A stretch of 43,819 bases of DNA from Planctomycetota bacterium (GTDB taxonomy: Bacteria > Planctomycetota > Planctomycetia > Pirellulales > Pirellulaceae). Of the stretch, positions 14,461 to 33,012 are shown in pieces. The DNA is taken from contig JAQCHP010000026.1 of the NCBI GenBank assembly GCA_027619595.1, positions 1 through 43,819 of the forward strand, written 5' to 3'. Under the pieces are notes generated by a model that was not told where the DNA came from, searched no databases, and worked only from the letters and a program-made list of their open reading frames with translations. Within the stretch, counting starts at the first letter, position 1. Each line of letters opens with the position of its first letter. The translations under genes and the position numbers were made by a program.

Positions 14461-14568
14461 GTTCCGAACCAACCCTGTTCCGAACCAACCCTGTTCCGAA
14501 CCAACCCTGTTCCGAACCAACCCTGTTCCGAACCAACCCTTCTGCCCCAACCTGTCTGCCCCAACCTG
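14461..14568. repeat. Tandem repeat: 5 x 16 bp plus 2 x 14 bp
   Basis: Five perfect copies of GTTCCGAACCAACCCT (14461-14540) followed by two perfect copies of TCTGCCCCAACCTG (14541-14568). Each 16-bp unit contains GTTC-C-GAAC, a palindrome with one central base, so it could be an array of protein-binding sites. The minus strand is rich in GGTTGG and GGTTGGGG and could form quadruplexes. It lies upstream of the small minus-strand gene. Confidence 0.92.
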
Positions 14569-15122: not shown

Positions 15123-16772
15123 ATGGCGTACGGAGCGACACGTCTACCATTTTTCTCATTCGCGATCGGACTACTTTTTCTAAGTGACTCGGGTTCGGCG
15201 ATCGGCCAGGAAAAGTATACCCCCAACCACCCTGTTGTCCGCGAAATGATCCGCAAGGCGTTGCTCTTCTTAGAGAAACGGGAACACTATCAACTTGGCG
15301 AGTCGTGTTTGGCGAGCCTCGCGTTCTTGAACGAAAATGTCCCCAAGACGCACCCTAAGCTAATGGCAACGCTTAGGGATTGTGAAACCGAGAGTGGGAA
15401 AGCCCAGGTTGGTGGCCCCTCGCTCCTCGATACCTACAATACGGCACTCGCGGCAATTTTTTTAGCAAATTACGACGGGACCGGGCAAAAGGAATTGATT
15501 TCCAAATACGCTGGTTCGTTGATGGGTCGCCAGAACCAGGATGGTGCGTGGGGCTATCCGCACTCCCCGACTCTTAGCGACACCTCACAGACGCAATACG
15601 CGCTGCTGGCAATTTGGTATGCCCAGTACCATAACGCACATAATGTCCCTTCCAACGTCATGCCAAAAGCCTTGAATTGGCTGATGGCGACGCAAGATCC
15701 GACGGGAGAATGGGGATACAATGGTCAGGCAGGGACGAGCGGCAATCGGGTGCCGCAAATTGACAAGTCGCACTCGCTCACCGCCGCTGGCCTCAGTAGC
15801 GCCTACGTTTGCGCGAACCTACTTCACATGACGCTCGAAGGATCCGCACTTCCAGAAGCGGTTGGACCCCTTCGTCCCGTTCAGCGGTCCGACATTCTCG
15901 ACGCGAAAACCAAATCAAACCGCGGGACAACCAACGGCGTGTCGGCGCTGCGCCTGCGCACATGCCTCGCTGATGGTAACCAATGGTTCGATAAAAACCT
16001 TAAGTTTGATGACACCGAGTGGGCCCATTATTACATGTACGCCTACGAGCGGTACCGTAGCTTCCGCGAAATCGCCGAAGGCAAATACGAGGCGTCACCA
16101 AAGTGGTATAACCTTGGAGTGAAGTTCCTGCGTGAGACGCAGCAGTCGAACGGTAGCTGGGACGGAAAAACGGTCGCAGTCGGCCACGACACGGCCCTCA
16201 GCGTAAACACAGCGTTTGCCGTCCTTTTCTTGCAGAGGAATACGCAAAAGGCATTGGAACCGCTGCGGGCTGGTAGGCTCACGGGGGGGCGTGGATTACC
16301 CAAGAACCTGCAGGAAGCACGCGTGTTCGACGGCAAAATACAAGGACGTCAATTCGAGGGTACCATGAACGAACTCTTGGCAGCTCTGGACGACCCCAAT
16401 TTTGACAAAGCTGTTCATGCGGGTGGATCGCACGACTTGCCCCCTTTAAGCGACGATCCAAGCGAACGGAAACAGCAGCTTGAACGCCTGCGTCGTATGG
16501 TGGCTCATGATAGGCACGCACTTCGCTTGGCTGCCGTTCAAATGCTCGCTCGCTCGAAAACACTCGATGAGGTCCCCTACCTAATCTACGCCTTAACCGA
16601 TCCCGACACTGGAGTTATGCTGGCAGCTCAAGAGGGACTGCAAACGATTAGCCGTAAGACACGCGGGTTTCAACTGCCCGAACAGCCGACTCGCGCCGAC
16701 GTACTGAAACTCGCGGATGCCTGGAAGGCTTGGTATCGTTCCCTGCGCCCCAACGCAACATTTCTCGAGTAA
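15123..16772 (+). CDS. Secreted prenyltransferase/squalene-cyclase-fold protein
   Basis: A 549-residue protein starting with a signal peptide (LPFFSFAIGLLFLSDSGSAIGQ). The body is built of alpha/alpha-barrel repeats of the terpenoid cyclase/prenyltransferase fold with QW-like motifs: NQDGAWGYP (about 138-146), QDPTGEWGYN (191-200) and QQSNGSWDG (about 340-348). The cyclase DxDD acid motif is not visible, so a binding role is more likely than catalysis. The last ~100 residues (LERLRRMVAHDRHALRLAAVQMLARS) look like HEAT repeats. AAGAAGGG lies 7-14 bp before ATG 15123. It opens a plus-strand operon with exbB/exbD-type genes starting 21 bp after its stop, so it probably works outside the cytoplasmic membrane with that complex. 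Confidence 0.88.
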   Translation: MAYGATRLPFFSFAIGLLFLSDSGSAIGQEKYTPNHPVVREMIRKALLFLEKREHYQLGESCLASLAFLNENVPKTHPKLMATLRDCETESGKAQVGGPSLLDTYNTALAAIFLANYDGTGQKELISKYAGSLMGRQNQDGAWGYPHSPTLSDTSQTQYALLAIWYAQYHNAHNVPSNVMPKALNWLMATQDPTGEWGYNGQAGTSGNRVPQIDKSHSLTAAGLSSAYVCANLLHMTLEGSALPEAVGPLRPVQRSDILDAKTKSNRGTTNGVSALRLRTCLADGNQWFDKNLKFDDTEWAHYYMYAYERYRSFREIAEGKYEASPKWYNLGVKFLRETQQSNGSWDGKTVAVGHDTALSVNTAFAVLFLQRNTQKALEPLRAGRLTGGRGLPKNLQEARVFDGKIQGRQFEGTMNELLAALDDPNFDKAVHAGGSHDLPPLSDDPSERKQQLERLRRMVAHDRHALRLAAVQMLARSKTLDEVPYLIYALTDPDTGVMLAAQEGLQTISRKTRGFQLPEQPTRADVLKLADAWKAWYRSLRPNATFLE

Positions 16773-16793
16773 CCGGAAACTAAAAATCACCGG

Positions 16794-17669
16794 ATGACAA
16801 ACCCAACACCGCATCCTCCGAACGCAAAGGTGACGGCCGCAAACCGGTTGCGTGTAACGCTGTACGATCAAGTATCAAGCATGATCGTTGCGCTCCTGAT
16901 TGTAATCGGGTGCGTGGTTGCCTTGTTGGCGGTACTGGTGTATACGCGTCAGTTATTAGTACGTCGTAACATAGTGGGTGCGGAGATCGTCGAGGAGGCC
17001 GCCGGCCGGGGTGACCATCCAGCGGGATTCGAGGAGGACTTCCGCGAACCGAGCTTGGAGTCGATGCAGGACATGACCACCGTCACGACGGAGATTCTCC
17101 AAGCGCTGACCGACGACCCGACGGATTTACTCAGCGCCAACCCAGAACTGTTCGACGGCCCGAGTGCTTCGGTAAAACAAGGTCGCGGCGACCGTCGCCA
17201 ACCCGGTCCGCTAGGGCATGGCCGCGACATCATTCCCAGGTGGGAGCGTTGGGAAGTCCTTTTCAGTAGTGACAAACTGGAAACGTACGCCGCGCAACTT
17301 GACTATTTTCAGATTGAATTGGCGGCCATTGGTGGGGACCGGGAAACGATCGAGTATGCCGCGCAATTTAGCAAAGCCGCTCCGAAGGCCCGGAAAGGGC
17401 CGGGATCCTCTGAGAGTCGGCTCTACATGACCTGGAAGTCAGGAGAACTCAAGGCAGCCGATGACAGTCTCTTACGTAAGGCGGGCATCACTACGGCCCA
17501 GAAGATTCTAGTTCAGTTTTTTCCAACACCCGTCGAGAACCAATTGGCCCGACTTGAACTCGTTGCAGCTGGCGAGAAGAAACTTGAACAGATTCGCCGC
17601 ACTATTTTTGGAGTGCGTCCCAAGGGACGTGAATTTGAGTTCTATGTTGTCGAGCAGATCCTGCGTTAA
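16794..17669 (+). CDS. Single-pass membrane protein with TonB-like topology, Exb-associated
   Basis: A 291-residue protein of no named family. A short polar N-terminus is followed by one strong membrane helix (residues about 28-50, MIVALLIVIGCVVALLAVLV), an acidic, probably disordered stretch (60-140), and a compact C-terminal domain beginning PRWERWEVLFSSDKLETYAAQLDYF and ending FEFYVVEQILR. The layout (anchor, linker, folded end) and its place directly before exbB recall TonB or TolA. No TonB C-terminal signature or Pro-rich spacer is present, and RR after the helix could instead put the C-terminus in the cytoplasm. The gene starts 21 bp after the cyclase-fold gene and ends 43 bp before exbB. 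Role in the Exb complex is inferred from position. Confidence 0.75.
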   Translation: MTNPTPHPPNAKVTAANRLRVTLYDQVSSMIVALLIVIGCVVALLAVLVYTRQLLVRRNIVGAEIVEEAAGRGDHPAGFEEDFREPSLESMQDMTTVTTEILQALTDDPTDLLSANPELFDGPSASVKQGRGDRRQPGPLGHGRDIIPRWERWEVLFSSDKLETYAAQLDYFQIELAAIGGDRETIEYAAQFSKAAPKARKGPGSSESRLYMTWKSGELKAADDSLLRKAGITTAQKILVQFFPTPVENQLARLELVAAGEKKLEQIRRTIFGVRPKGREFEFYVVEQILR

Positions 17670-17712
17670 TCCTGCCGTGAGACCTTCAGAAGCCATACTT
17701 TGAGACCAAACC

Positions 17713-18375
17713 ATGGACATTAGTCAAGTCGTCGAAATCGTGGGAAACATCATCTATGCGGCACTGGCTGCCATAGCGCTCTGGGGTGCGTACTGCAGTG
17801 CGATCGTATGGATGCGAATCGCCAAGCAACGTTTTCGTAGCGAAACGACACAAGATGCCTTCTTGAGTGAACTGTCCACTCCGCTCGTGCAGGGAAACTT
17901 TGATGCGGCGCAGGCGATTTGCGAATCCGACCCGCGAGCGTTACCCCAGTTGGCCTACATGGCAATCCACAATCGTGCGATTGGCTACGCCAAGGTACGT
18001 CAATTGGTTACGGATCGCTTTCAGCGGGATGTCCTTTCGGATCTTGAACAATGGATAACTGGGGTCAATACGGCGATCAAGAGCGCGCCCATGTTAGGCC
18101 TTCTTGGTACGGTCGTCGGGATGATGGGCGCTTTTGGTAAACTAGCAGCCGGCGAAAAAGCAGACCCGGTCGGACTCGCCAATGACATCAGTTTAGCATT
18201 GATCACAACTGCCATCGGACTGTGTATCGCCATTCCACTGATTCTCTGCGTAGCCACGATCAACACGCGAATCCGTAAGCTGGAAGACTTGGTGACGGTT
18301 GGCCTAGCACAGTTCCTGGATACCTTCCGCGACGCGTTGGCCCACGATAACGAGTCCCAGGGAAAGTTGCGTTAA
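17713..18375 (+). CDS. MotA/TolQ/ExbB-type proton channel protein
   Basis: A 220-residue channel subunit of the ExbB/TolQ family, which with ExbD turns the proton gradient into mechanical work on periplasmic partners. It has an N-terminal membrane helix (IVGNIIYAALAAIALWGAYC), a cytoplasmic loop, and the diagnostic block APMLGLLGTVVGMMGAFGKLA followed by DISLALITTAIGLCIAIPLILCVA, the two pore-lining helices with the conserved Thr. Length is normal for the family. It is followed by two exbD-type genes, so the channel may use a mixed ExbD pair. Confidence 0.93.
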   Translation: MDISQVVEIVGNIIYAALAAIALWGAYCSAIVWMRIAKQRFRSETTQDAFLSELSTPLVQGNFDAAQAICESDPRALPQLAYMAIHNRAIGYAKVRQLVTDRFQRDVLSDLEQWITGVNTAIKSAPMLGLLGTVVGMMGAFGKLAAGEKADPVGLANDISLALITTAIGLCIAIPLILCVATINTRIRKLEDLVTVGLAQFLDTFRDALAHDNESQGKLR

Positions 18376-18441
18376 ACGCTCGAACTAGCCTCACGCGTTG
18401 ACTACTCGCTGCCCAAAACCATCCTTACGGATTTATCCAAG

Positions 18442-18984
18442 TTGATTCCCGAGAATAAACGATCGCCGATATATCCAACAACGGAAGAGCAGGGTACCCC
18501 GTTACCAGTACTCCCTTCAATGCGCCGACGCGCACGTCGCAAACTCGAAGAAACCGAAATGGACATCACACCCATGATCGACATTACGTTTCTCTTGTTG
18601 ATTTTCTTTATCGTGGCAACAAAGATCAGCACCAATAAGGACATTCACCTTCCACCGGCTGAGCACGGAATTAACGTAGTCCAGAAGGATTCGATCGTCA
18701 TTTCCGTGAAGGAGACACGTGATGGCGTTGTCACGGTTTCGGGCGCGCATGGATCCGGGGAGCCTCAGGCATTAAGTGCAAACGATGTAGAAGCACAAGC
18801 CCAGGCGGTCACCCAATTCGTCACGGATTCGCTACGACAGGCCGATACGCGTCCGCAGGTAATCTTGATGGCCGACCGCAATGTAAAACATCGCATCGTC
18901 GCTGCAATTGCTCGTGCTGCCTCCTCTGCAGGGGAAATATCGCTCTACGTGGCGGTTCTGGAGGAGCAAGAAAAATCATCATGA
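18442..18984 (+). CDS. ExbD/TolR-type biopolymer transport protein 1
   Basis: An ExbD/TolR subunit. After a basic stretch (RRRARRKLEETE) comes the single membrane helix MDITPMIDITFLLLIFFIVATK with the proton-carrying Asp (residue 47 of this start), then a periplasmic domain ending in QVILMADRNVKHRIVAAIARAA. The start is unsure: TTG 18442 gives a 40-residue cytoplasmic tail; ATG 18520 gives 14 residues, the usual ExbD length. Neither has a clear ribosome-binding site. Its last codon overlaps the next exbD start as ATGA, so the two are translationally coupled. Confidence 0.9.
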   Translation: MIPENKRSPIYPTTEEQGTPLPVLPSMRRRARRKLEETEMDITPMIDITFLLLIFFIVATKISTNKDIHLPPAEHGINVVQKDSIVISVKETRDGVVTVSGAHGSGEPQALSANDVEAQAQAVTQFVTDSLRQADTRPQVILMADRNVKHRIVAAIARAASSAGEISLYVAVLEEQEKSS

Positions 18985-19607
18985 CGAACGACCTAATAGT
19001 TTTTAATTGCCCTGATTGCGATGCCGTTCTTTCGGCGCGACTTGATCAGGACGGCGACGTAGTTGTTTGTCCCCAATGCGGCACCGAGCTAATTGTTCCA
19101 GATCCCGACAGTACGGGCGGCACGACCGTCGCCGAGGAAGCAAGGCAGCTTTCGCGAAGAAAACCCGCGGACGACGAAGGCGAGATGGACATGACCCCGA
19201 TGGTCGACGTGACGTTCTTGCTATTGATATTCTTTATGGTTACGGCGGCCTTTGCGGCACAAAAGTCCTTTGAAATTCCGACTCCCAATCCGGACCAACC
19301 TAGCACGCAAGTCGCGCTGATTGAAGATCCGGAGGATGACCCGACCGTCGTTACTGTTCGCATTGACGAATACAACACGTATTACGTCACTGGCAGCAGT
19401 TGGGATGACGAACAAGAGGCACCGACCAAACAGGAACTAATGTCACGATTTCGTGAAGCGCAGGATAGCCCATCGCCCCCAACCAGCATGCTCATCATTG
19501 CACACCCAGAATGCAGCCACGAAAAAGTGGTGAGCGCATTGGACGCCGGCAACGCATTTAAAATGGAAGACATCAAGCTGATGACGGCTGACCGTGACGA
19601 ATTGTAA
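18981..19607 (+). CDS. ExbD/TolR-type protein 2 with N-terminal zinc ribbon
   Basis: A 208-residue ExbD variant. Residues 10-33 form a zinc-ribbon pair, CPDC and CPQC, in a cytoplasmic extension of about 68 residues. Then comes MDMTPMVDVTFLLLIFFMVTAAF with the conserved Asp at residue 76, and a periplasmic domain with IDEYNTYYVTGSS and SMLIIAHPECSHEKVVSALDAG. Standard ExbD has only a short cytoplasmic tail, so the ribbon is an addition that could bind a regulator or nucleic acid, which is inference. It overlaps the previous exbD by four bases (ATGA). Confidence 0.92.
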   Translation: MTNDLIVFNCPDCDAVLSARLDQDGDVVVCPQCGTELIVPDPDSTGGTTVAEEARQLSRRKPADDEGEMDMTPMVDVTFLLLIFFMVTAAFAAQKSFEIPTPNPDQPSTQVALIEDPEDDPTVVTVRIDEYNTYYVTGSSWDDEQEAPTKQELMSRFREAQDSPSPPTSMLIIAHPECSHEKVVSALDAGNAFKMEDIKLMTADRDEL

Positions 19608-19670
19608 TCAACTTCGCGTTCACAGCCTGGACGCTACCTCAAAAATCAACTTCCTAAGAGCAATAAATCG

Positions 19671-22600
19671 ATGAGTGTCGACGAACTGTTAAAGAAGCTC
19701 TATCAACAAGGATTCTTGTCGAAAAGCCAGGTCCTCAAGGTAAAGGGGCAACTGGCGAAGAACCCCCGTACGGCGTCGCTCGAGAGCGTTCAGCGAGGAC
19801 TCGTCAATAGCAGGCTTGTCACCCAGGAACAGATCGACGTCGTTTTGCAAGGGGCAAGCCCGCAACGTAAGCCGAAAGATGACATATTTGTCGTTGATGA
19901 TACCGACGAAGAAGTCTTGGATCTATTGCCGGTAGATCCGCAATCGCAACCATCCCCGGCGCCGGGCCCCATCTTACCGGAACTCGGTGACCTGCTGTCA
20001 GGTACCAACCCGGGTAAAAAGAAGCCGATGGAGCGGTCTGACGTCCAAGGAATCGCTGAGCAACTGACCGAAGCAAACGATGCGAGTGACGACCAGGTGC
20101 CCTTCGACGCCCGCGGTCGGGCGCGCCGAATACGACGGCGCGGCAACCCGTGGGACTCACCTTTGATCCTTTTTGGCGGTGGTGGACTTGTTCTTTTGAT
20201 GGTGACTGGGGTCGCACTCTTTCTCTTTCTATCCCGCGGCAGCGGCGATGACCTGCTGCAGGTGGCCGATGCGGACTATAACGCCGCGAGATACGCCAAT
20301 GCCGGTCAATCGTATGAAACCTTCGTAACAAAGTATCCACGGCACCCGAAGATATCCCATGCACGCGTCTGGCGTGGATTGACTCAGATTCGACGGCAAC
20401 GTGAATCGCCAAGTGACTGGTCGAAGTCGCTTGATTTGGTGACGAATACCCTGTCCGAGCTACAATCGGAAGCGGCGTTTGTTGACGCCCGCCCCGAACT
20501 GGCTGGCCTGCTACCCGACCTGGCCGGGGGAATCGTGGAAGAGGCACTGCGTCAGGATTCCCTTGAAAACAAATCGCTATTAGTAGAGCAAGCCAAGCGG
20601 GCGATCGAACTGATCGACAACAGTGGCTATATCCCGTCATCTCAACGTAAGAACATCGAAGGACGCGTGGAAGCGATTCGCGATAATCTGCAGGTTGCAG
20701 AACGGGACGTGCAGCGGGGCGCCGAGTTATCCAAAACGCTACAGAATATGCAATCCTCGATGGTCAGCAAGAACCCGGTGGCCGCCTACGAAGCTCGGGA
20801 ACGCTTGTTACGACAATACCCTGCATTGCAAACAGATGAGTCTTTGTCAAAAAACACACAAGAGATTGCTACTGCCGAAGTGGCACTCATTCGTGCAGAA
20901 ACCGACCCCGTTTCCGCAACACAGGACGATGTACCCACGATTGCTGAACGCAAACTGATTTTTACTCGACAATCGGTCTCATCGCCTACCGACGGAGCCC
21001 AAAAGGTCCATCTGCTCAGGCTGCAAGGTCATGTTTACGCATTCAACGTCACAAATGGCAAACTCCTTTGGCGAAGATTTCTCGGATTACGCTGCGACAC
21101 GGGACCTTGGCAATTTCCGTCGTCGGGAGTGTTGTGGCATGCCGATGAGCATTGCCTACTCGCAGTCGATCTGCTGACAGGCAAATTGAAGTGGCGTCTT
21201 CCGGTCCCGGACGGCAACTTGTATGCAACACAAGATGGTCAACAACTCATCGTCACATCGGACACGGGTAAGTTGTTCCTCATTGACGTCGAACTGGGTA
21301 CTGTATCGCGTACGGCGAGTTTTCCCCGGGGCCTGTCGGCGGCGACCTGTCGAATTCCCAAGACGAACTTCGTCTTGCAACCGGCCGAACACTCGACCGT
21401 CTATCTGTTGGACGGCCAAACACTGGAGGGACGTGGCAACTTCTTCCTTGGGCATAGCGCGGGAACGCTGACCGTTCCTCCTTTCGTCTTAGGAGAAAAC
21501 GTCTTGATCGGCGTCCATTCCCAATCCAACCACACCGACTTGCATGTATTGCACTCTGGAGATGAGCCGGGACAACTGCGGCCGCGGCAGGAGCCCCTGC
21601 GTATTGCGGGCCGTATTTCGCAGCCCATGCAGGCTTTTGACAGGCGACGTCTTTTTCTGATCACGGACCGTGGAGTTCTTGCCGTCGTAGGCACAGCGGG
21701 TGAGGATTCGGGTAACAATGTGCAGGTGTTAGCCAGCACCGTGCCCAATACCGACGTCGTGTCCCGTCAAACTTACGCAACATTGTTCGCCAATCAACTC
21801 TTCGTGGGCGACGAGCAATTGGCACGGCTTGAAGTCCTGACGGCGCGAGGCCAAATTGTGCCGCGTGAATTCATGAACCAAGGGGCTAGTTACTTGACGC
21901 CATTGCAAACAGTCGGCGACGTTCTGATCCAAGTGTATCGCGGACCGGGACGCAGCGGTGCTCAAATCTCCGCTTGGCGAGGAACCGCAGATCGACCCTT
22001 GCAGCAGGTTTGGGAAACGGAGTTTGCCGTCCCGCGCGCGGGAGCACTTATTGCCGATGCGACCCGTCGCCGTCTCCTTTCGGTGTCCGCCAACGGCGCG
22101 GTACATCAGGTCGACGGAGAAGTGATGCGAACCGGAACCTCACATCAACCACTCCAACAACTGGACCTACACCCGACAGCCGGTGCGCTCCACCAAGTGC
22201 GGGGGACTTCACCACGTGACGCGGCGCGACTGCTGTTTGTCTCGGATGGACCGATTGCCAATGTGTTTCGGATCAATCTGGAAGACGAGCAGACTCCACT
22301 TCGCCGTCAAGAATTGGCACAAGTGCGCGGGCAAGTTGGCGCGATGCCGATCCCATTTGGGGGAGGCATTCTACTGGCGACGCGGCAAGGCCCCATCACA
22401 CTCACCAATATGGATGACGGTCGCCGGCTGGCCACTCCGTTCCAGCCGCCACAAGAACTCGCCAGTGATTTCCGCTGGCTTGATCCCGTCACGATTGCAG
22501 ATGACACGTTTTGCATCGCGGACACAACCGGCAAGATGTACTTGATTCAGCTTTCCGATGGACGATTGAATTTGGTGAAACAAAGTGACCTAGCCATGAC

Positions 22601-23066
22601 TTTGCAACGGGGGATGATTGGCAATAGCAAACGGCTTTGGATGTCGGGCGACCAAGGCAAGTCGGTCCTGGTGCAAGTTGACCCTCTCGGCGGCACAAAG
22701 CAGGGAGAGGTTGAACTGCCGGGACCGCTGGACTGGGGCCCCCATCTCGTGGCTGACCGCGTTTGGGTATCGTCCGACGGAACGACTCTATCTTCGGTTT
22801 CAGAAGGACCAACACTGAATTGGTCCGTTCAATTGGAAGACGGACCACTCGTGGGACAACCGCTCGTCCGTGGCGACCAGGCAATTGTGATGACTATGAG
22901 CGGCGTAGCTTTAAGTTTTGACGCCAACTCCGGCAGCATTACGGATCGACTCAAGTTACACGAGCCGGTCGCCGGCGGCTGCATTCCCTTTCAGGAGCGG
23001 TTGATCGTCCCCGGCTTGGATGGAACCCTGCATGTCTTGCCGGTTTGGCCGAAGCAGGAGCGATAG
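19671..23066 (+). CDS. Membrane-anchored PQQ-type beta-propeller protein with cytoplasmic N-terminus
   Basis: A 1131-residue protein. Residues 1-60 are a small helical domain (LLKKLYQQGFLSKSQVLKVK) resembling the N-terminal domains of type II/IV secretion ATPases. An acidic Pro-rich linker follows. After basic ARRIRRR comes one membrane helix (163-188), so the rest is outside. Residues 190-400 are TPR-like helices (ADADYNAARYANAGQSYETFVTKYPRHP). The last 700 residues are propeller repeats of the BamB/PQQ type: NGKLLWRRF, TGKLKWRLP, TLNWSVQLEDGPLVGQPLV. PQQ-type names reflect the fold; no cofactor site is evident. The next gene starts 2 bp after its stop. As the largest exported part of an Exb operon, it is a candidate scaffold across the periplasm. 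Confidence 0.85.
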   Translation: MSVDELLKKLYQQGFLSKSQVLKVKGQLAKNPRTASLESVQRGLVNSRLVTQEQIDVVLQGASPQRKPKDDIFVVDDTDEEVLDLLPVDPQSQPSPAPGPILPELGDLLSGTNPGKKKPMERSDVQGIAEQLTEANDASDDQVPFDARGRARRIRRRGNPWDSPLILFGGGGLVLLMVTGVALFLFLSRGSGDDLLQVADADYNAARYANAGQSYETFVTKYPRHPKISHARVWRGLTQIRRQRESPSDWSKSLDLVTNTLSELQSEAAFVDARPELAGLLPDLAGGIVEEALRQDSLENKSLLVEQAKRAIELIDNSGYIPSSQRKNIEGRVEAIRDNLQVAERDVQRGAELSKTLQNMQSSMVSKNPVAAYEARERLLRQYPALQTDESLSKNTQEIATAEVALIRAETDPVSATQDDVPTIAERKLIFTRQSVSSPTDGAQKVHLLRLQGHVYAFNVTNGKLLWRRFLGLRCDTGPWQFPSSGVLWHADEHCLLAVDLLTGKLKWRLPVPDGNLYATQDGQQLIVTSDTGKLFLIDVELGTVSRTASFPRGLSAATCRIPKTNFVLQPAEHSTVYLLDGQTLEGRGNFFLGHSAGTLTVPPFVLGENVLIGVHSQSNHTDLHVLHSGDEPGQLRPRQEPLRIAGRISQPMQAFDRRRLFLITDRGVLAVVGTAGEDSGNNVQVLASTVPNTDVVSRQTYATLFANQLFVGDEQLARLEVLTARGQIVPREFMNQGASYLTPLQTVGDVLIQVYRGPGRSGAQISAWRGTADRPLQQVWETEFAVPRAGALIADATRRRLLSVSANGAVHQVDGEVMRTGTSHQPLQQLDLHPTAGALHQVRGTSPRDAARLLFVSDGPIANVFRINLEDEQTPLRRQELAQVRGQVGAMPIPFGGGILLATRQGPITLTNMDDGRRLATPFQPPQELASDFRWLDPVTIADDTFCIADTTGKMYLIQLSDGRLNLVKQSDLAMTLQRGMIGNSKRLWMSGDQGKSVLVQVDPLGGTKQGEVELPGPLDWGPHLVADRVWVSSDGTTLSSVSEGPTLNWSVQLEDGPLVGQPLVRGDQAIVMTMSGVALSFDANSGSITDRLKLHEPVAGGCIPFQERLIVPGLDGTLHVLPVWPKQER

Positions 23067-23068
23067 CC

Positions 23069-25432
23069 ATGGCAAACCAAGTCGGGGAGGGTGTCGAAAT
23101 ACGGCGAAGGGAGCAGATCCCGCTCGTATTCGCAATCATTTTCTACTTTGGCCTGCACTTTGGGCAGCCTACACTTCTGGCGCAGCCTCTCCCGTTGTTT
23201 AAGGCCGATGCTTACGACCGTTTAGCAGTCAAAGATGATACTGGAAAGACTGTCGTACATCGCATACTCCCCCTGGACGCAGTACAACGCGACAAATGGC
23301 TAAAAGGAGACAAACGGGACACGACGGTCGAAGTTCGGTTGTTGGACAATCCAGAACAGCGATATGAGGTCCGACGGTCAGACATCGTAAGACTGGAGTT
23401 TTTCGAAGATCGGTTGGTAATCGAAGCGAATCGACTTCTAGCTCAGAAAAATTTTGATGATGTATTCGGTTTTCTCTTGCGACTGCAGCGGGACTATCCT
23501 GAACAAACGAAAGTGCCCGCCCTATTACGAGATTTTTTGTACTTAGAATCACGACAGCTTTTTGAGGCTGGTAGTTACGAGGCTGCGTGGATTCGACTCG
23601 ACGAAGCACAAACTCTGGCACCGAACGACGACGAAATCAATGCGTTATTGACCAAGACGATTCATCAAATGATGCAACAAGCTTGGGATACAAATAGTTA
23701 CGGAAGTGTTCTGCAATGGCAGGATCGGCTGAAATCGAGGTACGGCGAATCGCAAGTGGAGTTGCTGCAAGAATGGCAGTCACGCATCGACGCACGGGTT
23801 GGGGAACTGGCAGCACAACTGTCGACCCAGATGGAATCCAAAAACTTTGTCGGAGCCTACGAGACGGCCTATCAGGTAGCTCCCTTTCGCTCCCAGGACC
23901 CAACCCTTGCAGCAAGCCTAACTGACTTGGAGCTGCAGTTTCCCACGATCCGTATCGGTGTGGCGTACCCCATTCTTGCCCCGTCATTAAACGACGATCT
24001 TGATTGGCGGACTCGGCGGGTGGCGAGATTACTTGGCAGGACCCTCACGGAAGCAACTCAAGTCGGCGCCGAAGGGTGCCGCTACGCGAGTCCGCTGGGC
24101 AACCTAGTGCAAGGGGATAGCTTCCGGGATTTGCGTCTTGAATTTAGCGATTCTCGTCACGGCGAGGACTTTTGGTCATCGCAATCGGTGCTCGATTTTG
24201 CGAGGCAGGCCCATCCGCTGAGTAGCATCTTTGGCGGCCTGGGTCCGTCGACGTCAATTCCCCGTTCTGGGCAATTGTTATTGCGAACATCGGATACGCA
24301 TTTGATCCTGGCAGGATTCCTTCGCATTGGCTTGTCAGAAATGCTCCAGGATGCATACGCTCGGTCCAGTGACCAATTGCCGCTCGACGGAGCTTATGGG
24401 TTGCCGACGCTTCGGCCCGGAGTTGCCAGTTTTGTTGCAAATCCCGACTATCTCTTTCGATCGAATCGGCAGTACCAGCAAGTGGTCGAATCGACACTGA
24501 AGTCATCACGAGACGGACTGGAACTCTTGCGCGATGGACGAATCGATGTGATTGATCGTCTTTATCCCGCCGAGATACCGAAACTAGAAGCGAGTAACGA
24601 TTTACAATTGGTCCCCTACGCGGTCCCTTCCGTCCACGTTCTGGCTATAAATCCCAACCGACCGTGGATGGCAAATCGCACTTTCCGTCGCGCATTGACC
24701 TACCTCCTTGACCGCCAGGATATTCTTCAACGAACTCTTCTGGCGGGTCAGGAAATCGACGGCTGCCGAGTCATCAGTGGACCGATACCGGCCGGTAAAA
24801 ACCCAGAGGATCCGATTGCCTATGGCTACGATGAGTCGATCGCTCCCTACGAGACCAACCTTGGAACCGGGCTGGTCTTGATAGAGGCTGCTCTAGGGGA
24901 AATAAAACGCTCGCAAAACATTGACGTCAGCCTTGCTCAAATAGAGCTTCGTCTGGCCTACCCTGTAGGTGAAATAGCGGCCGAAGCCTGCGCAGAAATC
25001 TGCCGTCAATGGAGCGCCGTGGGCGTACGTTGCGTCCCGGTCCCGTGGGAAAATGAAGAGGCGACTCAAACCGACGATTGGGACCTCTTGTACCGCGATC
25101 TCGTCATGGTGGAACCGCTCATCGACGTTGCCTATTTCTCTGCCAATTCATCCACGCTCCCCTCGTCTGCCTATTTAACATTGGCTATCAACCGAGTTCA
25201 GGAATCTGCGGACTGGCAATCGGCGCGTACGCGTCTCCGAGAATTACACCGAGTTTTTCATGAGGACGTCAGCGTCATCTCGCTTTGGCAGCTGCAGGAC
25301 TATGCAGTACATCGCCGTGGCTTCACCGGCATCGTGCCACCGGTCATGCGACTCTACGATTCGATTGAGGACTGGCGATCCGATCGCAGTGTTATCGCCG
25401 CACCCCAGCCGGCCGGAGTTCTAACTCCATGA
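23069..25432 (+). CDS. TPR-like / peptide-type solute-binding fusion protein
   Basis: A 787-residue exported protein; ATG 23069 gives a signal peptide (IPLVFAIIFYFGLHF...LLAQP). Residues about 40-100 form a small beta domain (VEVRLLDNPEQRYEVRRSDI). Residues 110-290 are TPR-like (QLFEAGSYEAAWIRLDEAQTLAPND). The C-terminal ~480 residues resemble family-5 solute-binding proteins of peptide/nickel ABC transporters: FVANPDYLFRSN, GRIDVIDRL, NPNRPWMANRTFRRALTYLLDRQDIL, and RELHRVFHEDVSVISLWQL near the end. No ABC permease or ATPase gene lies in this window. That, and its place in the Exb operon, suggest the binding domain was recruited for another use. It starts 2 bp after the propeller gene, and its stop overlaps the next start as ATGA. 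Confidence 0.82.
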   Translation: MANQVGEGVEIRRREQIPLVFAIIFYFGLHFGQPTLLAQPLPLFKADAYDRLAVKDDTGKTVVHRILPLDAVQRDKWLKGDKRDTTVEVRLLDNPEQRYEVRRSDIVRLEFFEDRLVIEANRLLAQKNFDDVFGFLLRLQRDYPEQTKVPALLRDFLYLESRQLFEAGSYEAAWIRLDEAQTLAPNDDEINALLTKTIHQMMQQAWDTNSYGSVLQWQDRLKSRYGESQVELLQEWQSRIDARVGELAAQLSTQMESKNFVGAYETAYQVAPFRSQDPTLAASLTDLELQFPTIRIGVAYPILAPSLNDDLDWRTRRVARLLGRTLTEATQVGAEGCRYASPLGNLVQGDSFRDLRLEFSDSRHGEDFWSSQSVLDFARQAHPLSSIFGGLGPSTSIPRSGQLLLRTSDTHLILAGFLRIGLSEMLQDAYARSSDQLPLDGAYGLPTLRPGVASFVANPDYLFRSNRQYQQVVESTLKSSRDGLELLRDGRIDVIDRLYPAEIPKLEASNDLQLVPYAVPSVHVLAINPNRPWMANRTFRRALTYLLDRQDILQRTLLAGQEIDGCRVISGPIPAGKNPEDPIAYGYDESIAPYETNLGTGLVLIEAALGEIKRSQNIDVSLAQIELRLAYPVGEIAAEACAEICRQWSAVGVRCVPVPWENEEATQTDDWDLLYRDLVMVEPLIDVAYFSANSSTLPSSAYLTLAINRVQESADWQSARTRLRELHRVFHEDVSVISLWQLQDYAVHRRGFTGIVPPVMRLYDSIEDWRSDRSVIAAPQPAGVLTP

Positions 25433-27021
25433 ACAAAAGCCAACACACTGGACTTCGCTCCGCCTTCAAGTGGCCCCTAGGCGACTGTCTAAGAATGGCC
25501 CTGACGGCTTTGTTGCTGGCACTGCTTGACGGTGGCCAGCTCCGGCAGTCGAGGGCACAGACACCCTGGGAAATCACACCCTATCAGTGCCGCGTCTGGC
25601 TGACCGCTTCGATTCATCCTTCGTTTTCGCCAGAGTCCGAAGCAAAGCTGCGGGGCGAAATCGTCAACGTATTGCGTGCGCGTCATGGAGCTACCTGGGA
25701 AATCGACGTAATAGACGCACCGCTCGCCGTAAAACGGACCGTCGAAAAGCTAGCGCCACATGACTGGGGGAGTATCCAATGGTTTGACATTGACCCCACA
25801 CTTGCCTCTGCGGAACTTGATAAACTCTTCGTCGTTCGACTTGTAGCGCAACTGCAACACATCGAACTACATGTGGTTGAGTTTGATATTGCAACGCGCC
25901 AGCTGGGTAGTCTTCTATTCAAAACACGTGCCGCTAGTGACAACTTAGCGTGGTGCATCGCCGACACAGTCACCGATGCATTTTCACCGACGGCCATGGT
26001 GCATCGAGTGGAAAACCACCAGGCGGAACTCCGCGTACGAGCCGGTGAATTACTGACCGACAGGAACGAACCGGCATCGATCACCCAAGGCGCATTGCTG
26101 CAGGCCATCGCGATCCCATTCACGCCACACGGAAAAGTGCGAACAGAGGGGATTCGTGTTATTCCTTGGACGGTTTTGGAAGTTGGCGAGTCGGCAGCGG
26201 GGCGGCTACAGGCCACAATTCATTCGGGGTATGGTCAGCCGTTACGCGCACGCCGCAGTCGTCGCCTCCAGCAGCGGGCGAGTGTGCTCAAAGTGCGTCA
26301 CCCGCATACGACTGTGCAGCTGATCGCCAATCGAACGCCCGCACGTCCCTTACAGGGATACGAAGTTTTCGTGGAAGAGAGCGGTCAATCGCCAAGCCGT
26401 AGCCTTGGAATCAGCGACCGCCATGGGCGGGTCCGCATACCCTCAGCAGACGTTCCACTGCAGCAGATTATCGTTCAGCACGGCGCCAGAAAGCTATCTC
26501 GACTTCCGCTTGTAGTTGGGCATCGAGAATCCTCGCCGTTGCCGCTTACAGACGACGACGATCGACTCGAGCTGGAGGGCTACGTGCAAGGTATCATGGA
26601 CCGTCTAATCGACGCGGTTGCACAGCGGCAGCTGATCACGGCTCGCGTACGCAAGCATATCGAAGCAGGAAACTACGACGGTGCTCGCGACCTGATCGCC
26701 CAATTGCGAAAAGTAGAATCACGCAGCGAATTTTTGGACCGTATCCAGCGCAGGCAGCGTCAATTAGGTGGCAGCAACCGTGAGATGCAATCCCGTGCCG
26801 TCGACAAACTCTTTGCCGATACACGTGTGTTATTTGAGCAATTCCTTGACCCGCTGTTACCCCAACGATTGCAAGACGAACTTACCCAGCGAGAATCAAC
26901 GACCACAGCGATTCCGGTTGATACGCCAGGCATCCAGGGGCTCACGCCCACTGGCTATTGCCTCGCGCCGCGTTGCGGCGAAGAGCAATCCCATTTGTCC
27001 CAACGGGACTCAAGTCACTAG
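25429..27021 (+). CDS. Exported protein of unknown function, last gene of the Exb operon
   Basis: A 530-residue protein I cannot place in a family. The N-terminus has a signal peptide (CLRMALTALLLALLDGGQLRQSRAQ). Early residues (CRVWLTASIHPSFSPESE) look like a binding domain. The middle contains beta-rich stretches and a carboxypeptidase-regulatory-like segment (LQGYEVFVEESGQSPSRSLGISDRHGRVRIP), often found in exported proteins. The C-terminal third is helical with TPR-like features (HIEAGNYDGARDLIAQLRKVE). The last ~30 residues are encoded by a dispersed repeat (26934-27042) and are rich in G, R and C, unlike the rest, so the original C-terminus has probably been replaced. ATG 25429 overlaps the previous stop (ATGA), indicating translational coupling. 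Confidence 0.8.
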   Translation: MNKSQHTGLRSAFKWPLGDCLRMALTALLLALLDGGQLRQSRAQTPWEITPYQCRVWLTASIHPSFSPESEAKLRGEIVNVLRARHGATWEIDVIDAPLAVKRTVEKLAPHDWGSIQWFDIDPTLASAELDKLFVVRLVAQLQHIELHVVEFDIATRQLGSLLFKTRAASDNLAWCIADTVTDAFSPTAMVHRVENHQAELRVRAGELLTDRNEPASITQGALLQAIAIPFTPHGKVRTEGIRVIPWTVLEVGESAAGRLQATIHSGYGQPLRARRSRRLQQRASVLKVRHPHTTVQLIANRTPARPLQGYEVFVEESGQSPSRSLGISDRHGRVRIPSADVPLQQIIVQHGARKLSRLPLVVGHRESSPLPLTDDDDRLELEGYVQGIMDRLIDAVAQRQLITARVRKHIEAGNYDGARDLIAQLRKVESRSEFLDRIQRRQRQLGGSNREMQSRAVDKLFADTRVLFEQFLDPLLPQRLQDELTQRESTTTAIPVDTPGIQGLTPTGYCLAPRCGEEQSHLSQRDSSH

Positions 27022-27257: not shown

Positions 27258-27581
27258 CTAAACCATGTCCTTGAGTCTCTTGAGAGGGCGGATTTTCACG
27301 ACGTTCGAAGCCGGCTTGGCCTTGAACATCTGCTCTTCCTTAGTAAACGGATTGATTCCTTTGCGGGCCTTAGTGGCCGGTTTGTGCTTGATCATGATCT
27401 TACATAAGCCCGGTACCGTAAATTCGCCGGCTCCGCGCTTACCCAAAGCCTTGCGAATTTCTTCGACCAAGCCCTCCAGGACGCTGGCGACGTCCTTCTT
27501 TGCAAGCTGAGTCGCTTCGGCAATGTTGCCCATGATCTCGGTCTTGGTCAATGCTTTTTTGGTTGTGGTAGCTTTCGCCAT
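27258..27581 (-). CDS. HU/IHF-family DNA-binding protein
   Basis: A 107-residue histone-like protein, slightly longer than the usual 90 because of a Lys/Thr-rich N-terminus (MAKATTTKKAL). The fold is clear: LTKTEIMGNIAEATQLAKKDVASVLEGLVEEIRKALG (helices) and then the arm GEFTVPGLCKIMIKHKPATKARKGINPFTKEE, with the Pro of the DNA-intercalating tip in INPFT. It bends and packs DNA as a homodimer. ATG 27581 has a strong ribosome-binding site AAGGAGGG. It stands alone, opposite to the two large plus-strand operons it separates, and ends at its own terminator. Confidence 0.95.
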   Translation of the reverse strand: MAKATTTKKALTKTEIMGNIAEATQLAKKDVASVLEGLVEEIRKALGKRGAGEFTVPGLCKIMIKHKPATKARKGINPFTKEEQMFKAKPASNVVKIRPLKRLKDMV

Positions 27582-28146: not shown

Positions 28147-28173
28147 AGGGTGCGTTGGATTCAAGGTGGGATA

Positions 28174-31100
28174 ATGGTGCATCGGATTCGACGTTGGTTG
28201 CTGGCAGTGGTCGCGTGTCACATTGCCCTATCGATGCCGCCCTGGGCGCATTGCCAAAGGGTCCCGGGTGGGCCCCGCGTTCCGGCGCTCAATCTAGACG
28301 ACACACCGGAATCAGACGACGAAACACCGGAATCGCGCGAGCTGGGGGTGTTTCGTAAGCCCCCCCGAGAACTACAACGCTACCTGGACCGTGCGCACCG
28401 CGCCATCGATCGCAGTGACTACAACGAAGCGGTCGATTTGCTGGCCGCGTTGCTCGAGCGCACGTCGGCTTCCCCAGATGCGCCGCTGGATAGTGACTTC
28501 TTGATGGCTCCCTCATCCAACGGCACTGCCCAAGACAGCCTACGCACCGCCGCTTGGCAAATGCTGCGAACCCTTCCGCCGGCAGCCCTGGAACTCTATG
28601 AATTACGCCTAGGCACGGACGCTGCCGACGCTTTACAGAAAGCGACTGCGCAACAGGACTTTGAGCAACTTCGAGCGGTCGCAGCGCGTTATCGACAAAC
28701 GCGTGCTGGTAATGAAGCCATGATGCTCTTGGGACGATCCTACCTCGACCGCGGTGAACCGCGTGCTGCAGTCCGTTGCTTCGACGCATTGCTTCCATTG
28801 CCTTCCACGACGGAGTCGACTGATCCACAATTGTCCCTCCTTCGTGCGGTAGCGCTGTTCCAATCGGGACAAATGGATTTGGCCCGCGATGCATTTCAGA
28901 GACTCCAACAAACGCGTAGTACGATTCGCACAGCCGACGCCGAATACACACTTGCTTCCGAGCTCGATTCACTGGAACAACTTTCGCGGCTTGTCGGACC
29001 GATACGGCACCTCGCGCCGGCGAGCCTGCACGACTGGCCTATCCACCGCGGCAGTGCCGACCGAAACCCCGTTTCAGCCGTCGGAGGCATTCCACTTTCC
29101 TATCCACACTGGCGCACACGCGTCTCGCTTGTTTCACCCGATGAAGAGCGCCACCTGCTAGAAGAAAAAGAGTCGCTGGAACGTACTCATCAGGCATCCA
29201 TGCCCAGTCTTTCTCCGCTGGCGGTGGATGACACAGTGCTCATGCGATCCACCGATCGTCTCGTTGCCATTGACTTCGAGTCGGGAAAATACCTGTGGGA
29301 ATGGCCCTGGGACGACACTACCGATGCCTATACGGAGGATTTTGAACACTCCGTTAACAACTCGGAGGGGTTGACCCATCAGCGACTGGACGATGTCGCA
29401 CAGCGAGTGTGGGACGATGCACCCTATGGACAATTGTCAAGTGACGGCAACGCAGTCTACCTCCTGCAAGGGTTCGGTCACCAACTGGAGGCCTCGCAGG
29501 AAAATGGACCTTTCGCGACGTCACCTGATGCATTAACGAACGAATTGGTGGCATTGGACTTGAAGTCACAGGGCAAATTCCTCTGGCGGGTAGGTGGCAG
29601 TGAAAGCACGCAGGAACCGATACTTGCTGGAACGTTTTTCACCGGACCGCCGCTGCCGTATGCGGGCAGCCTGTACATCATTGGCGAAACACGCGGCGAA
29701 GTCGTGCTGTTTTGCTTGGCCAGTCAGAGTGGCAAGTTACAATGGAGCCAACAGCTTACCTTCGTACAGACCGGACTCCAACTCGATCCCTTGCGGCGGA
29801 TGCTCGGTGCCAGCCCATCACTCCAAGACGACATTCTGGTGTGCCCAACGTCGTGTGGCGCAGTCGTAGCAGTCGACCTTACCACGCGACAACTGCTCTG
29901 GGGCTATCAGTACCCACGCGTTGATGACCACCAGCCGTCTCGCGCGATTTGGTCAATTCGATCACCAAGTTTCCTTCCGCGGAACAATCGATGGCTCGAT
30001 GCGTCGGCGATGCTCTCTTCAGGTTCCGCGATCCTGAGCCCACCCGAGTCAAATCAACTGCACTGCCTGGATTTGGAAACGGGCAAGCTGCGATGGACCC
30101 TGCCGCGCGTGTCGCAAGAGAAGAATGAGGAATGGTGGTTCGCAGCCACGATCCACCACGACAAAGTCATCACGGTCGGACCACGACATGTTGCTGCGTG
30201 GAACCTGATCGATGGCACACCCGCGTGGCCCCAGCCACTGGCGATTCCAGACGACGCAGTGCCTACGGGGCGAGGGTTCTTACATGCCGGCCGATACTTT
30301 CTTCCTGCAAGTACGCCATCGTTGTTAGAAATTGACATTGAGCACGGAAGCGTCAGTGTGCACCGTTTGCCAGCGACGCTCGGAAATACGATCAACTACC
30401 GTGAACATCTGTTGAGTCAAACGCCAACGGAACTCATCTCGTATTACCAGCGAGACGCATTGGAGCGAGAAGTGGAGCGTCGACTGGCGACAGCGCCCCA
30501 CGATCCGTGGGCACTTGAGCACAAGGGACAGTTGGAGCAGTCTGCCGGCCACGTCGCACAGGCAGTCGAATTGTATCGGCTCGCGTTGGCCCAATTTCCA
30601 TCTCACGATGCGCGACGTGCACCGATCGAAAACCTCTTATTCGATGCATTGCTCTCGCAACTACGAACCGACATTACGAATCTCGATATCGCACGAGAAG
30701 CTGAATCGCTAACGGGCAGTCCACAGCAAGAATTGGCGCTGTTGCGTCTCAAAATTGAACGGTTCCTTGCCGTGGGAAACCCGATGTTGGCCGCTGCCGA
30801 ATTGTGGCAGATGAACGAAATCGCCGGCGATCCACGCACGTGGCGAGGAACCCCAGAAGGGACGGAACGCCGCCTGACCCTCGATCCAGCAGCCTCGACG
30901 CACGAAGCAAGGTGGCTCACGATGCGTTTCAAAGAAGTTTGGGAGCAGTCGAGTTTGCCTCAACGGTTGGAACTCGACTTGCTCGCCGCCAAGATTTTTG
31001 AAGCGATTCGGCACACCGACTCGTCCACCGAGATCGAACGCTTTGTCACCGTATTCCAAGGGTTCCCCACAGCGACGACGGCGACTCGAACATTGGCTGA

Positions 31101-33012
31101 ATCGTATTCCCGACGCAATGACTTGTTGGGGGCTGAGTTGCTCCTGCGGTCGGCATTTGAGCCGGCACGGTCCAACTCACAGTGGTGGACGGCTCCGGAT
31201 GCCTTACCGATTGCAGCGATGTTGGGCGAATCCTTCCAAAAATCAAATCAATCTCGTGCGTTAGCGGACGTGGTTAAACTACTTCAAGCCGAGGGAAATG
31301 GCGGGGCCGCCACGTGGCAGGACGGCACGTCCCGCGTCTGGGCGGAACGGTTTTCCCAATGGCTAAGGGACGACAGCGCACCGCCTTGGGCGGATGGAAA
31401 AGTTGACGTCCAAGTCAATGTGGCCGATGTCGCCCCCGAAAATGGGATGACTCAGGAATCGATTCCAGTGCGCCGAATGAACGGTGGCGATGGAATTCCT
31501 TGGACCGCCCATACCGACCGGCAGATGCAACTTACGTTGCGAAACGCACGCGGCGAAGATGCGGGCCAGATACGCCTCAGGACGATATCGGACGGGGTGG
31601 GTCCACAAATAGAAATCGGCCAGTTCGGTCCGATGCTCGCCGTGGCCACGAATGGCCAACTCACGTTGCTTGACACGTCAATCTCGCGCGGAAATTCGCA
31701 AGACATGGTGCGCTGGACGCACAAATTGAATGCCACAGTCACAACGACATTTGAAGATGCGACTGCGTCGGCGTTCACCAATTGGCCTTGGGGCGAACGT
31801 CGAGTCAACTTCTCCGCCTTTCCACGTCCGCGGCCTCAGTTGATGGCCCGTCTGGGTCCTGTGCTACCGCAAGGGGTCTGTATCGCGAACGAAGGACGTT
31901 TGGTCTGTGTAAGTCCGCTGACGGGCGAAACCGTCTGGGAGCGTCCTCTGATCTCCCGCAAAGCCGAACTTTGGGGCGACTCGGAAATCGTGGTGGTAGC
32001 CTACAACGACAGAGACAAAGCACAAGTCGTATCGCTCATCGATGGCGAACTCTTGGGCGAACGACAGATCCCTCCCAGCCAGCAACGATGGACCACAGTC
32101 GGACGCCAGGTACTGGCGTGGGAAAATAATCCCGTGGAAAAAACCCGCACCCTCCAGATGCTCGATCCGTGGACCACCAAAGTCGTTTGGTCGGTCACGT
32201 GTCCGGAGACGACTAAGGGGACGATCGTTGATGAGGAAGAATTAGCCCTCATGCAGCCGAGCGGCCGATTCGTCGTTTATGACCTGCGCACGGGGGATGT
32301 GCAGGTGGAAGGACAGCTGGAACCCGAACCTGAACTCACATCGATTGCCGTAACGCGATCCGACAGCCAATACTTTGTCATGACCAACGGGCGTGTGCCC
32401 GCGGAGTCGCGTCCGCCCACGGAACGGATCACGTCGATAACTCCTACTCCTTCCACACCCATTTACGGTCGGGTGTACGCCTTTTCACGTCAGGGCAGTG
32501 GACTTCAATGGCCAGTTCCGGCTTTTATTGACCAATATTTTCCTGTGCGAAGCTTGGCGCGGGACGTACCTCTGTTGGTATTCGCCCGCAATAAACAATC
32601 GCTGGCGGAACCGAATCGTCGCACGACGGAGGTCCTCGTCCTGGACGCGCGAGATGGTCGGCTACTATGGGAAGGTGCACGACCGGCCACGGGTCGGCAT
32701 GAGTTGAAGTTAGTCAGTGACCCATCAACTCAACACGCTCGTCTTTACCTCGCCGACGGCGCGACTGTACTCGATATTCATTTTACGTCAGCGCCTCGTG
32801 CCCCCGCCCCCCCTGCGCAAACCGGGCGTGCGGCGAGTCGTCTCGCAAGTTCCTCCAGCTTGCGAAATATCATGGGAGCGGTTTCGCGGGCGTTCGGTTC
32901 GCTGAATCCCCTCCAAGTGGATGATCAAGCGGCCCCAGAGTTTCAAGAGGAGCTACTGGACGAAGACGCGGACGACCAAGACGCCAACGCGTTCATCGAG
33001 GAGAACGAGTAG
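28174..33012 (+). CDS. Giant secreted PQQ-type beta-propeller / TPR protein
   Basis: A 1612-residue exported protein. ATG 28174 gives a signal peptide ([20 protein letters not shown]) and is preceded by AAGGTGGG; a GTG 24 bp upstream is less likely. Residues about 60-270 are TPR-like ([31 protein letters not shown]). A first propeller follows with repeats such as [29 protein letters not shown] and [10 protein letters not shown] middle helical/TPR part ([21 protein letters not shown]) leads to a second propeller ([21 protein letters not shown]). The C-terminus is strongly acidic ([15 protein letters not shown]). The fold is that of PQQ/BamB-type propellers; no enzyme motif is seen. It lies 89 bp before moxR on the same strand and is probably part of the same unit, perhaps as an envelope scaffold. 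Confidence 0.85.

Follow-up and report, generated by a model that had tools for sequence, protein, structure and literature searches.

A candidate trans-envelope machine of Planctomycetia driven by an ExbBD motor, with a proposed Tol-Pal-like role

Introduction

What would a planctomycete do with an ExbB/ExbD motor whose genes stand among none of the usual partners of such motors? The question is raised by a stretch of 43,819 nucleotides (hereafter the window; GenBank contig JAQCHP010000026.1, assembly GCA_027619595.1, from a bacterium of the family Pirellulaceae), which is one contig (C78) of a genome of 5.18 Mb in 281 contigs. Between positions 15123 and 27021 it carries eight open reading frames (ORFs), all on the forward strand and here called g1 to g8, in which a first-pass annotation had seen an ExbB channel (g3) and two ExbD proteins (g4, g5) joined to a single-pass protein (g2), a propeller protein (g6), a cyclase-fold protein (g1), a solute-binding fusion (g7) and a further exported protein (g8), together making a dedicated energised envelope machine.

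The well-known motors of the ExbBD type have few jobs, namely TonB-dependent import, Tol-Pal and gliding, and no description of a cluster such as this one was found in the literature searched, which covered little of the subscription journals. The explanation best supported by the analysis set out here (probability about 0.6) is that the class Planctomycetia has a dedicated machine which spans the envelope, is powered by ExbBD and most likely works in the manner of Tol-Pal. That the cluster forms one motor-driven envelope machine is very probable; that its role is Tol-like, an assignment made by analogy, is offered tentatively, at somewhat below even odds.

Results

The gene order is kept in much of the class

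The eight ORFs lie where they had been placed, with gaps of 21 bp between g1 and g2, 43 bp between g2 and g3, 66 bp between g3 and g4 and 63 bp between g5 and g6, and with overlaps of 4 bp between g4 and g5 and between g7 and g8; g6 and g7 are 2 bp apart, or overlap if the TTG start of g7 is used. Pfam recognises g3, g4, g5, g6 and g7 above gathering scores, and it bears out the statement of the annotation that none of the usual partners is found among the eight genes. The same co-directional arrangement is seen in other genomes, whose proteins are about 20-60% identical to these, and the set is therefore more than a chance neighbourhood. Scans for promoter-like and terminator-like sites returned 5 and 13 sites, and since these counts lie under the means of shuffled sequence (7.3 and 15.4, respectively) they are given no weight.

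A search with g7 covered 199 genomes of the phylum, of which 40 matched, 12 of them members of the class including the source genome; 16 neighbourhoods were fetched, 11 from other class members (L037-L047, from families f1, f2 and f3) and 5 from outside the class. Each of the 11 fetched class loci has g2 to g8 on one strand and arranged as in the window (tblastn and ORF results combined), though several of these loci share a genus and are thus not independent; the five loci from other classes (L048-L052) hold only a relative of the solute-binding protein. A profile of g2 matched 44 of 392 genomes across the phylum, 40 of them in the class and 4 outside it with weak scores (E 1.6e-6 to 3.3e-4), and the 20 genomes listed as having no match all belong to other classes; within the class the profile matched 248 of 297 genomes, the weak matches of families f113 and f116 included. 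In a scan of named genomes, the best 80 of 184 stretches gave 79 loci, every one under the name of a planctomycete taxon or of an unnamed bacterium, and 33 of them were too short downstream for the order to be counted; among the other 46, whose sequence extends 9.3 kb or more past g2, genes g3 to g7 follow in order on one strand in 31, and 29 of these also have g8. The motor set is widespread and mostly single-copy in the class, and the gene order, which the annotation had named as one of two points on which its proposal would stand or fall, is kept in much of it.

Parts of the set persist when split and are absent together

The set behaves as one unit, because its modules persist where the operon is split and its parts are absent together. 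In family f82, all 8 fetched loci carry g1-g2-g6 with no motor genes between them, and 7 of the 8 also carry g7-g8 within the fetched stretch, past which g8 of the eighth genome (G457) lies by about 12 kb; the g3-type ExbB lies elsewhere in all 7 genomes searched (177-200 bits, the next ExbB scoring at most 117), and g4-g5 follow this gene (L225-L231). In two genomes of family f114 (G397 and G400) g2-g5 are found together, and a different contig carries g7-g8, with g6 as well in the case of G397. In G321, probably a Planctopirus, g2 stands apart (near 1.13 Mb on C1), and the g3-type ExbB, at about 5 kb from g7, is 1 Mb distant from it (near 2.20 Mb). At four loci (L127, L191, L210 and L211) g2 is next to the motor genes alone, within the fetched stretch. 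As g2 is found both with g6-g8 sets and with motor genes alone, it is the common link between the two.

Of the 49 class genomes without g2, 20 are listed, and only these 20 were checked for g8, g3 and g7. None of them has g8, which is present in all 17 genomes with a strong g2 match and in 7 of 8 with a weak one (Fisher test for 17/0 against 0/20, 6e-11, a value that ignores descent). In these 20 the g3 profile scores no higher than 101 bits, against 173-328 bits in six of six genomes with g2; the best score of the g7 profile is at most 55 bits in the 20, 139-790 bits in seven of seven genomes with a strong g2 and 94-131 bits in five genomes of f113. Some losses look separate, since within one genus G647 lacks the set and G369 has g2, and within one family G393 lacks it and G397 and G400 have it; draft genomes may miss genes.

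The annotation had allowed that a TonB or Tol set elsewhere might be the real user of these ExbB and ExbD proteins. The source genome does encode a TonB_C protein elsewhere (C159); across the 18 genomes common to both listings, TonB_C occurs in 7 of 12 with g2 and in 3 of 6 without, and its presence thus does not track g2. With the order conserved and the set not going with the genome's TonB, neither of the two findings named as fatal to the proposal was made, and the claim of a dedicated system is supported.

The motor

The ExbB/TolQ-type channel g3 (17713-18375, forward strand; 220 residues) matches MotA_ExbB at 81.5 bits (cut-off 22.9), and the ExbD/TolR-type proteins g4 (18442-18984, forward; 180 residues) and g5 (18981-19607, forward; 208 residues) score 73.4 and 75 bits (cut-off 25.4), which upholds their first assignment. 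Channel threonines of ExbB and the membrane aspartate of ExbD have functional roles in such motors. All 25 g3 sequences compared have Thr133 and Thr166, which align with the threonines of TolQ; g4 and g5 carry the membrane aspartate in the contexts TPMID and TPMVD, and it is kept in 12 of 12 orthologues of each. A pattern recognised it in 104 of the 115 ExbD ORFs at the named loci, the remaining 11 not having been inspected. From these conserved residues g3-g5 may be taken as a proton-driven motor, with a presumed stoichiometry of 5:2, and the machine is predicted to be energised. The second ExbD, g5, begins with a zinc ribbon of two CxxC motifs, presumably cytoplasmic. Both motifs occur in all 12 orthologues and, among the g5 ORFs scored at the named loci, in 46 of 53. 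In the g5 relatives of L040, L041, L043 and L047 the membrane helix starts about 135-230 residues further in.

The candidate transducer

Beside the motor genes lies g2 (16794-17669, forward; 291 residues), which consists of a membrane helix (residues 23-58 in the model), an acidic disordered linker and a C-terminal domain (149-291). In the model the linker has low confidence and the C-terminal domain forms a block with a predicted local distance difference test (pLDDT) score of 86-98 from residue 151. All 12 orthologues have one membrane segment, and the C-terminal domain would lie on the periplasmic side; the linker has a median of 88 residues, with 22% Asp or Glu and 8% Pro. At residue 25, by one end of the helix, all 65 proteins have an Asp or a Glu. 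The topology is that of the TonB and TolA transducers, whose role g2 would play here.

The annotation had called g2 TonB-like, and of this the single-pass topology holds, while homology to TonB is not detectable: g2 matches nothing in Pfam or NCBIfam, a profile search of PDB sequences gave no match, and comparison of the profile with a TonB alignment from the same order (hhalign) gave a probability of 0.2%. The membrane-helix histidine, kept in six of six sequences of that TonB alignment (H21), is absent from g2, so that the known docking motif of TonB and TolA lends no support. Membership of g2 in the TonB system was rejected on these two grounds, the missing histidine and the failed profile comparison, and only the analogy is kept. 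Identity with a von Willebrand factor A (vWA) transducer was set aside as well, there being no vWA match in Pfam; a fold outside the Foldseek and VIA lists could be missed by this. Six loci carry a second or tandem g2 copy (L201, at G307:C1:1378700-1398600; L093, L105, L108, L145 and L150), which suggests duplication of the transducer.

The envelope partners

Downstream of the motor, g6 (19671-23066, forward; 1131 residues) combines a membrane segment (165-183), TPR repeats and a PQQ/BamB-type β-propeller; Pfam gives PQQ_2 at 61.4 bits and a YfiO-like TPR below cut-off. A single membrane segment after about 160 residues is found in 12 of 12 orthologues, and the residues before it are presumably cytoplasmic. 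The next gene, g7, encodes an exported fusion of TPR repeats with a family-5 solute-binding domain (SBP_bac_5, 59.6 bits; the TPR match is weak). It runs on the forward strand to 25432, either from an in-frame ATG at 23069, 2 bp past the g6 stop, or from a TTG at 23045 inside g6, which gives 795 residues.

The last gene, g8 (25429-27021, forward; 530 residues), encodes an exported protein of several predicted domains (mean pLDDT 84): a TolB-N/CsgG/LpoB-like domain at about 48-190, a small barrel like the N-terminal domain of F1-ATPase at 187-288, and a CnaB/transthyretin-like domain at 290-375, followed by long helices. It has no Pfam or NCBIfam match above cut-off, and a profile search of PDB sequences finds no sequence relation to FlgT or TolB. 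By structure, Foldseek places first 8z5n_0 (E 1.5e-8), a chain of the flagellar LPHT ring that is probably FlgT, then FlgT itself (3w1e, 8.1e-8) and TolB (7mx5, 2.8e-7), with CsgG, LpoB and PelC ranking lower. In VIA, where a common arrangement could suffice for a Z below about 8, residues 48-286 align with 8z5n_0 at Z 9.2 (195 residues, root-mean-square deviation (rmsd) 7.7), g8 aligns with 3w1e at Z 7.9 (194 residues, rmsd 9.3; Foldseek template-modelling (TM) score 0.20-0.26) and with TolB (3iax) at Z 7.6 (121 residues, rmsd 3.3), and residues 292-374 align with the transthyretin-like domain 3e8v at Z 10.6.

At the head of the operon, g1 (15123-16772, forward; 549 residues) encodes an exported protein with a cyclase fold (α/α-toroid-like) and C-terminal HEAT-like repeats; it stands directly upstream of g2 in 5 of 11 fetched loci and in 41 of the 64 named loci whose flank is long enough to tell. 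DXDD is the catalytic motif of the cyclases; it is absent from g1 in six of six orthologues, and g1 is therefore probably no cyclase. Together with the similarity to squalene-hopene cyclase, which is below threshold (23.2 bits, cut-off 26.1), this led to squalene or hopanoid synthesis by g1 being rejected.

Other motor loci and the surroundings of the operon

The source genome has three further ExbB/ExbD loci (C258, C260 and C269). Two of these, L178 on C260 (5567-9655, reverse strand) and L179 on C269 (9436-12583, forward), encode a TPR-like protein, an ExbB, an ExbD and a cyclase-fold protein, in that order. In the two cyclase-fold proteins (34% identity over 397 columns) a long linker joins membrane segments near the N-terminus to the cyclase-fold domain at the C-terminus; the one from C269 matches SQHop_cyclase_C above the cut-off (29 bits, cut-off 26.1) and the one from C260 below it (19.7 bits). 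They were considered as vWA-type transducers and rejected, since Pfam gave cyclase-fold similarity and no vWA. By eye, the C269 protein has SVFAH in its second membrane segment, which resembles the S-x3-H motif of TonB and TolA, and with their TonB-like topology these proteins are a possible further kind of force transducer. BLASTP finds no relation between g1 and the C269 protein (E 0.059). A cyclase-fold protein nevertheless accompanies three of the genome's ExbBD loci, the window included, which makes g1 less likely to be a chance neighbour. The two loci thus resemble the operon in that TPR-like proteins and a cyclase-fold protein are encoded next to an ExbBD motor; they differ in that the cyclase-fold domain sits on a membrane-anchored linker protein, whereas g1 of the window is exported, and in that no g2 or g6-g8 was recognised at either.

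At L177 (C258, 10394-12295, reverse) an ExbB is followed by two ExbD genes, with larger genes upstream that gave no identification, and L180 (C257, 263-4796, reverse) encodes a 439-residue protein with a MotA_ExbB domain, followed by two genes that match no ExbD. In the window, a perfect tandem repeat of five 16-base units lies upstream of the operon (14461-14540). Downstream, beyond an HU-type gene (27258-27581) in convergent orientation, another TPR/PQQ-propeller protein, larger than g6, is encoded (28150-33012, forward; 1620 residues); it is outside the operon and perhaps linked to it. A genome of the same family (L037, complement of 83-3691) has a relative of it some 2 kb upstream of g1 and oriented the other way.

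Discussion

If the eight proteins form one machine, its working can be sketched as follows. A ring of ExbB around an axle formed by ExbD and the zinc-ribbon ExbD, a 5:2 motor by prediction, would draw on the proton-motive force. Held beside this motor by one helix, g2 would transmit force across the periplasm through its C-terminal domain and engage an assembly of g6, anchored in the inner membrane, g7, g8 and often g1. The device would be a housekeeping one, pulling or holding the outer membrane, its presumed target, relative to the inner membrane or the wall. Among the possible roles a Tol-like one is favoured, since the set is widespread in the class and includes a propeller, TPR parts and, in g8, a fold like that of TolB-N. 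Canonical TolB was not found in the class: TolB_N (PF04052) occurs in none of 118 class genomes (the control responds in 3 of 14), which agrees with a report that Tol-Pal is largely reduced in Planctomycetes (PMC8871954). The essentiality study of Planctopirus limnophila (PMC10632474) contains, in the portions of its main text covered, none of the terms biopolymer, Tol, MotA or proton channel, and a search of PMC12283558 by terms alone gave no hit.

Several observations weigh against this reading. At least 20 genomes of the class live without the set, which is thus not universally essential, and these genomes are grouped by lineage, 9 of the 20 in family f106, so that the counts of presence and absence are not independent; 11 of the 20 give weak matches to the g7 profile, which are read as ordinary solute-binding proteins, and the parts found in f113 match weakly and are dispersed. 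The full order is missing in 15 of the 46 named loci: g3 stands ahead of g2 at L100 and L113, motor genes are absent at L134 and L149, g3 was not found at L151, only some of the genes were found at L091, L092, L122, L126 and L133, g2 is alone at L096, L104, L158 and L160, and the motor genes of L127 are on the opposite strand. In g2, only 1 of 65 proteins has a histidine within residues 23-50, and the C-terminal domain has no recognised relative (best Foldseek E 0.1, best VIA Z 3.8; the searches listed neither TonB nor vWA, which establishes neither a new fold nor the absence of a relative). The fold matches of g8 have TM-scores of 0.17-0.27 with large rmsd, unrelated folds (ubiquitin E1 enzymes) enter its Foldseek list from E 2e-4, and the TolB-N-like fold serves many roles.

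Among the other explanations is uptake: g7, g8 and g6 would receive large substrates, and ExbBD with g2 would power their passage through the outer membrane as an alternative to TonB receptors. The family-5 solute-binding domain of g7 speaks for this, as does the CCCP (carbonyl cyanide m-chlorophenylhydrazone)-sensitive periplasmic uptake of dextran by Gemmata obscuriglobus, reported for 23% of 1,065 cells and for 0 of 816 with CCCP (PMC5394234). G. obscuriglobus (G399) itself, however, has only diverged, scattered copies of the set; Pfam recognises neither a pore of the outer membrane nor a permease in the eight genes, and presence in most sampled class genomes is more than would be expected of a single-substrate importer, all of which makes uptake an unlikely task. 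A little less likely still is a part in crateriform structures, of which the set would be the energised inner portion: these outer-membrane complexes touch the inner membrane and, according to the same source, appear to connect both membranes and are present in G. obscuriglobus. The taxonomic literature gives some agreement. Described Phycisphaeraceae are reported without crateriform structures (PMC7783415, PMC8882080); Kolteria novifilia, for which neither crateriform structures nor membrane invaginations are reported (PMC12288469), lacks g2 and g8 and has g3 and g7 scores at background only (G393); and g2 is present in the crateriform-bearing Alienimonas californiensis (G361), Maioricimonas rarisocia (G291) and Isosphaera pallida (G395) and in three Lacipirellulaceae reported with such structures (G430, G439, G518; PMC7717034). 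Yet Thalassoglobus polymorphus (G024) and Caulifigura coniformis (G105), for which crateriform structures are given as 'not observed' (PMC7716917, PMC7717036), carry g2-g8, which weakens the link; the set is missing in only one of three 'not observed' strains, the extra surface layer of Kolteria may conceal pits, and G. obscuriglobus has the structures with no more than dispersed copies of the set.

The two proposals can be combined, with the operon as the core of crateriform structures driven by the proton-motive force and powering CCCP-sensitive import of macromolecules into the periplasm, g8 serving as an outer ring, g2 as the moving link and the zinc-ribbon ExbD as a cytoplasmic control point; this more specific picture is held to be improbable, slightly more so than the crateriform link by itself. 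The least probable explanation, for which the odds are slim, is that nothing beyond a common operon connects the envelope proteins with the motor, which would be a generic one serving TonB or further systems. The three further ExbB/ExbD loci and the TonB_C protein of the source genome, and the separation of the motor genes from g1-g2-g6 in f82, could be so explained; against this, the g3-type ExbB far outscores the other ExbBs in genomes with g2 and is lacking from those without it, a contrast lost in f113, and TonB_C does not follow g2. These considerations leave the dedicated trans-envelope machine, with a role most likely akin to that of Tol-Pal, as the preferred reading.

A widespread motor set that combines a candidate transducer of unassigned family with a FlgT- or TolB-like partner points to one more type of energised machine acting across the envelope. 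It offers a genetic handle on several questions of planctomycete biology: the upkeep or movement of the outer membrane in the absence of canonical TolB, the mechanism of budding, the composition of crateriform structures and the source of power for the uptake of macromolecules. An experimental test is practical, deletion tools being described for Planctopirus limnophila and Stieleria maiorica (PMC11958385).

Comparison with known systems

An ABC importer with a family-5 solute-binding protein differs from the operon in its permease and ATPase, neither of which Pfam finds among the eight proteins. With FlgT, of the flagellar H/T ring, the possible likeness is that g8 residues 48-286 align over two consecutive domains; the TM-scores are low, g8 has additional CnaB-like and helical parts, and there is no flagellar gene among the eight by Pfam. 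The ExbB-ExbD-TonB system shares the motor and the topology of g2, and differs in that the eight genes include no TonB receptor and that g2 is without the membrane-helix histidine of TonB. A parallel is offered by the vWA-type force transducers of bacteria of the Planctomycetes-Verrucomicrobia-Chlamydiae (PVC) group, which are described with an ExbBD-type motor, a pair of unlike TolR proteins, a TPR gene and a transducer other than TonB (Mol Biol Evol 2025, PMC12204202). All of these are shared with the operon, from which they differ in their other partners and in that g2 has neither a vWA domain (by Pfam) nor the SHLS histidine; the present gene set is not described in the sections of that report covered here.

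Tol-Pal consists of TolQ, TolR, TolA, TolB, Pal and CpoB. The operon departs from it in having two ExbD proteins, one with a zinc ribbon, and in carrying the propeller, of PQQ/BamB type, and the TolB-N-like domain on separate polypeptides; no TolB_N is found in the eight proteins by Pfam, and g8 shares features of the fold only. Two differences count against a Tol-like role, namely that Pfam finds no Pal among the eight genes (Pal was not searched genome-wide) and that the solute-binding fusion is foreign to Tol-Pal. What the two have in common is a TolQ/TolR-type motor, a single-pass protein with a periplasmic C-terminal domain (g2, which was not compared directly with TolA), and, within one operon, a TolB-N-like fold (g8), a β-propeller (g6) and TPR repeats (g6 and g7).

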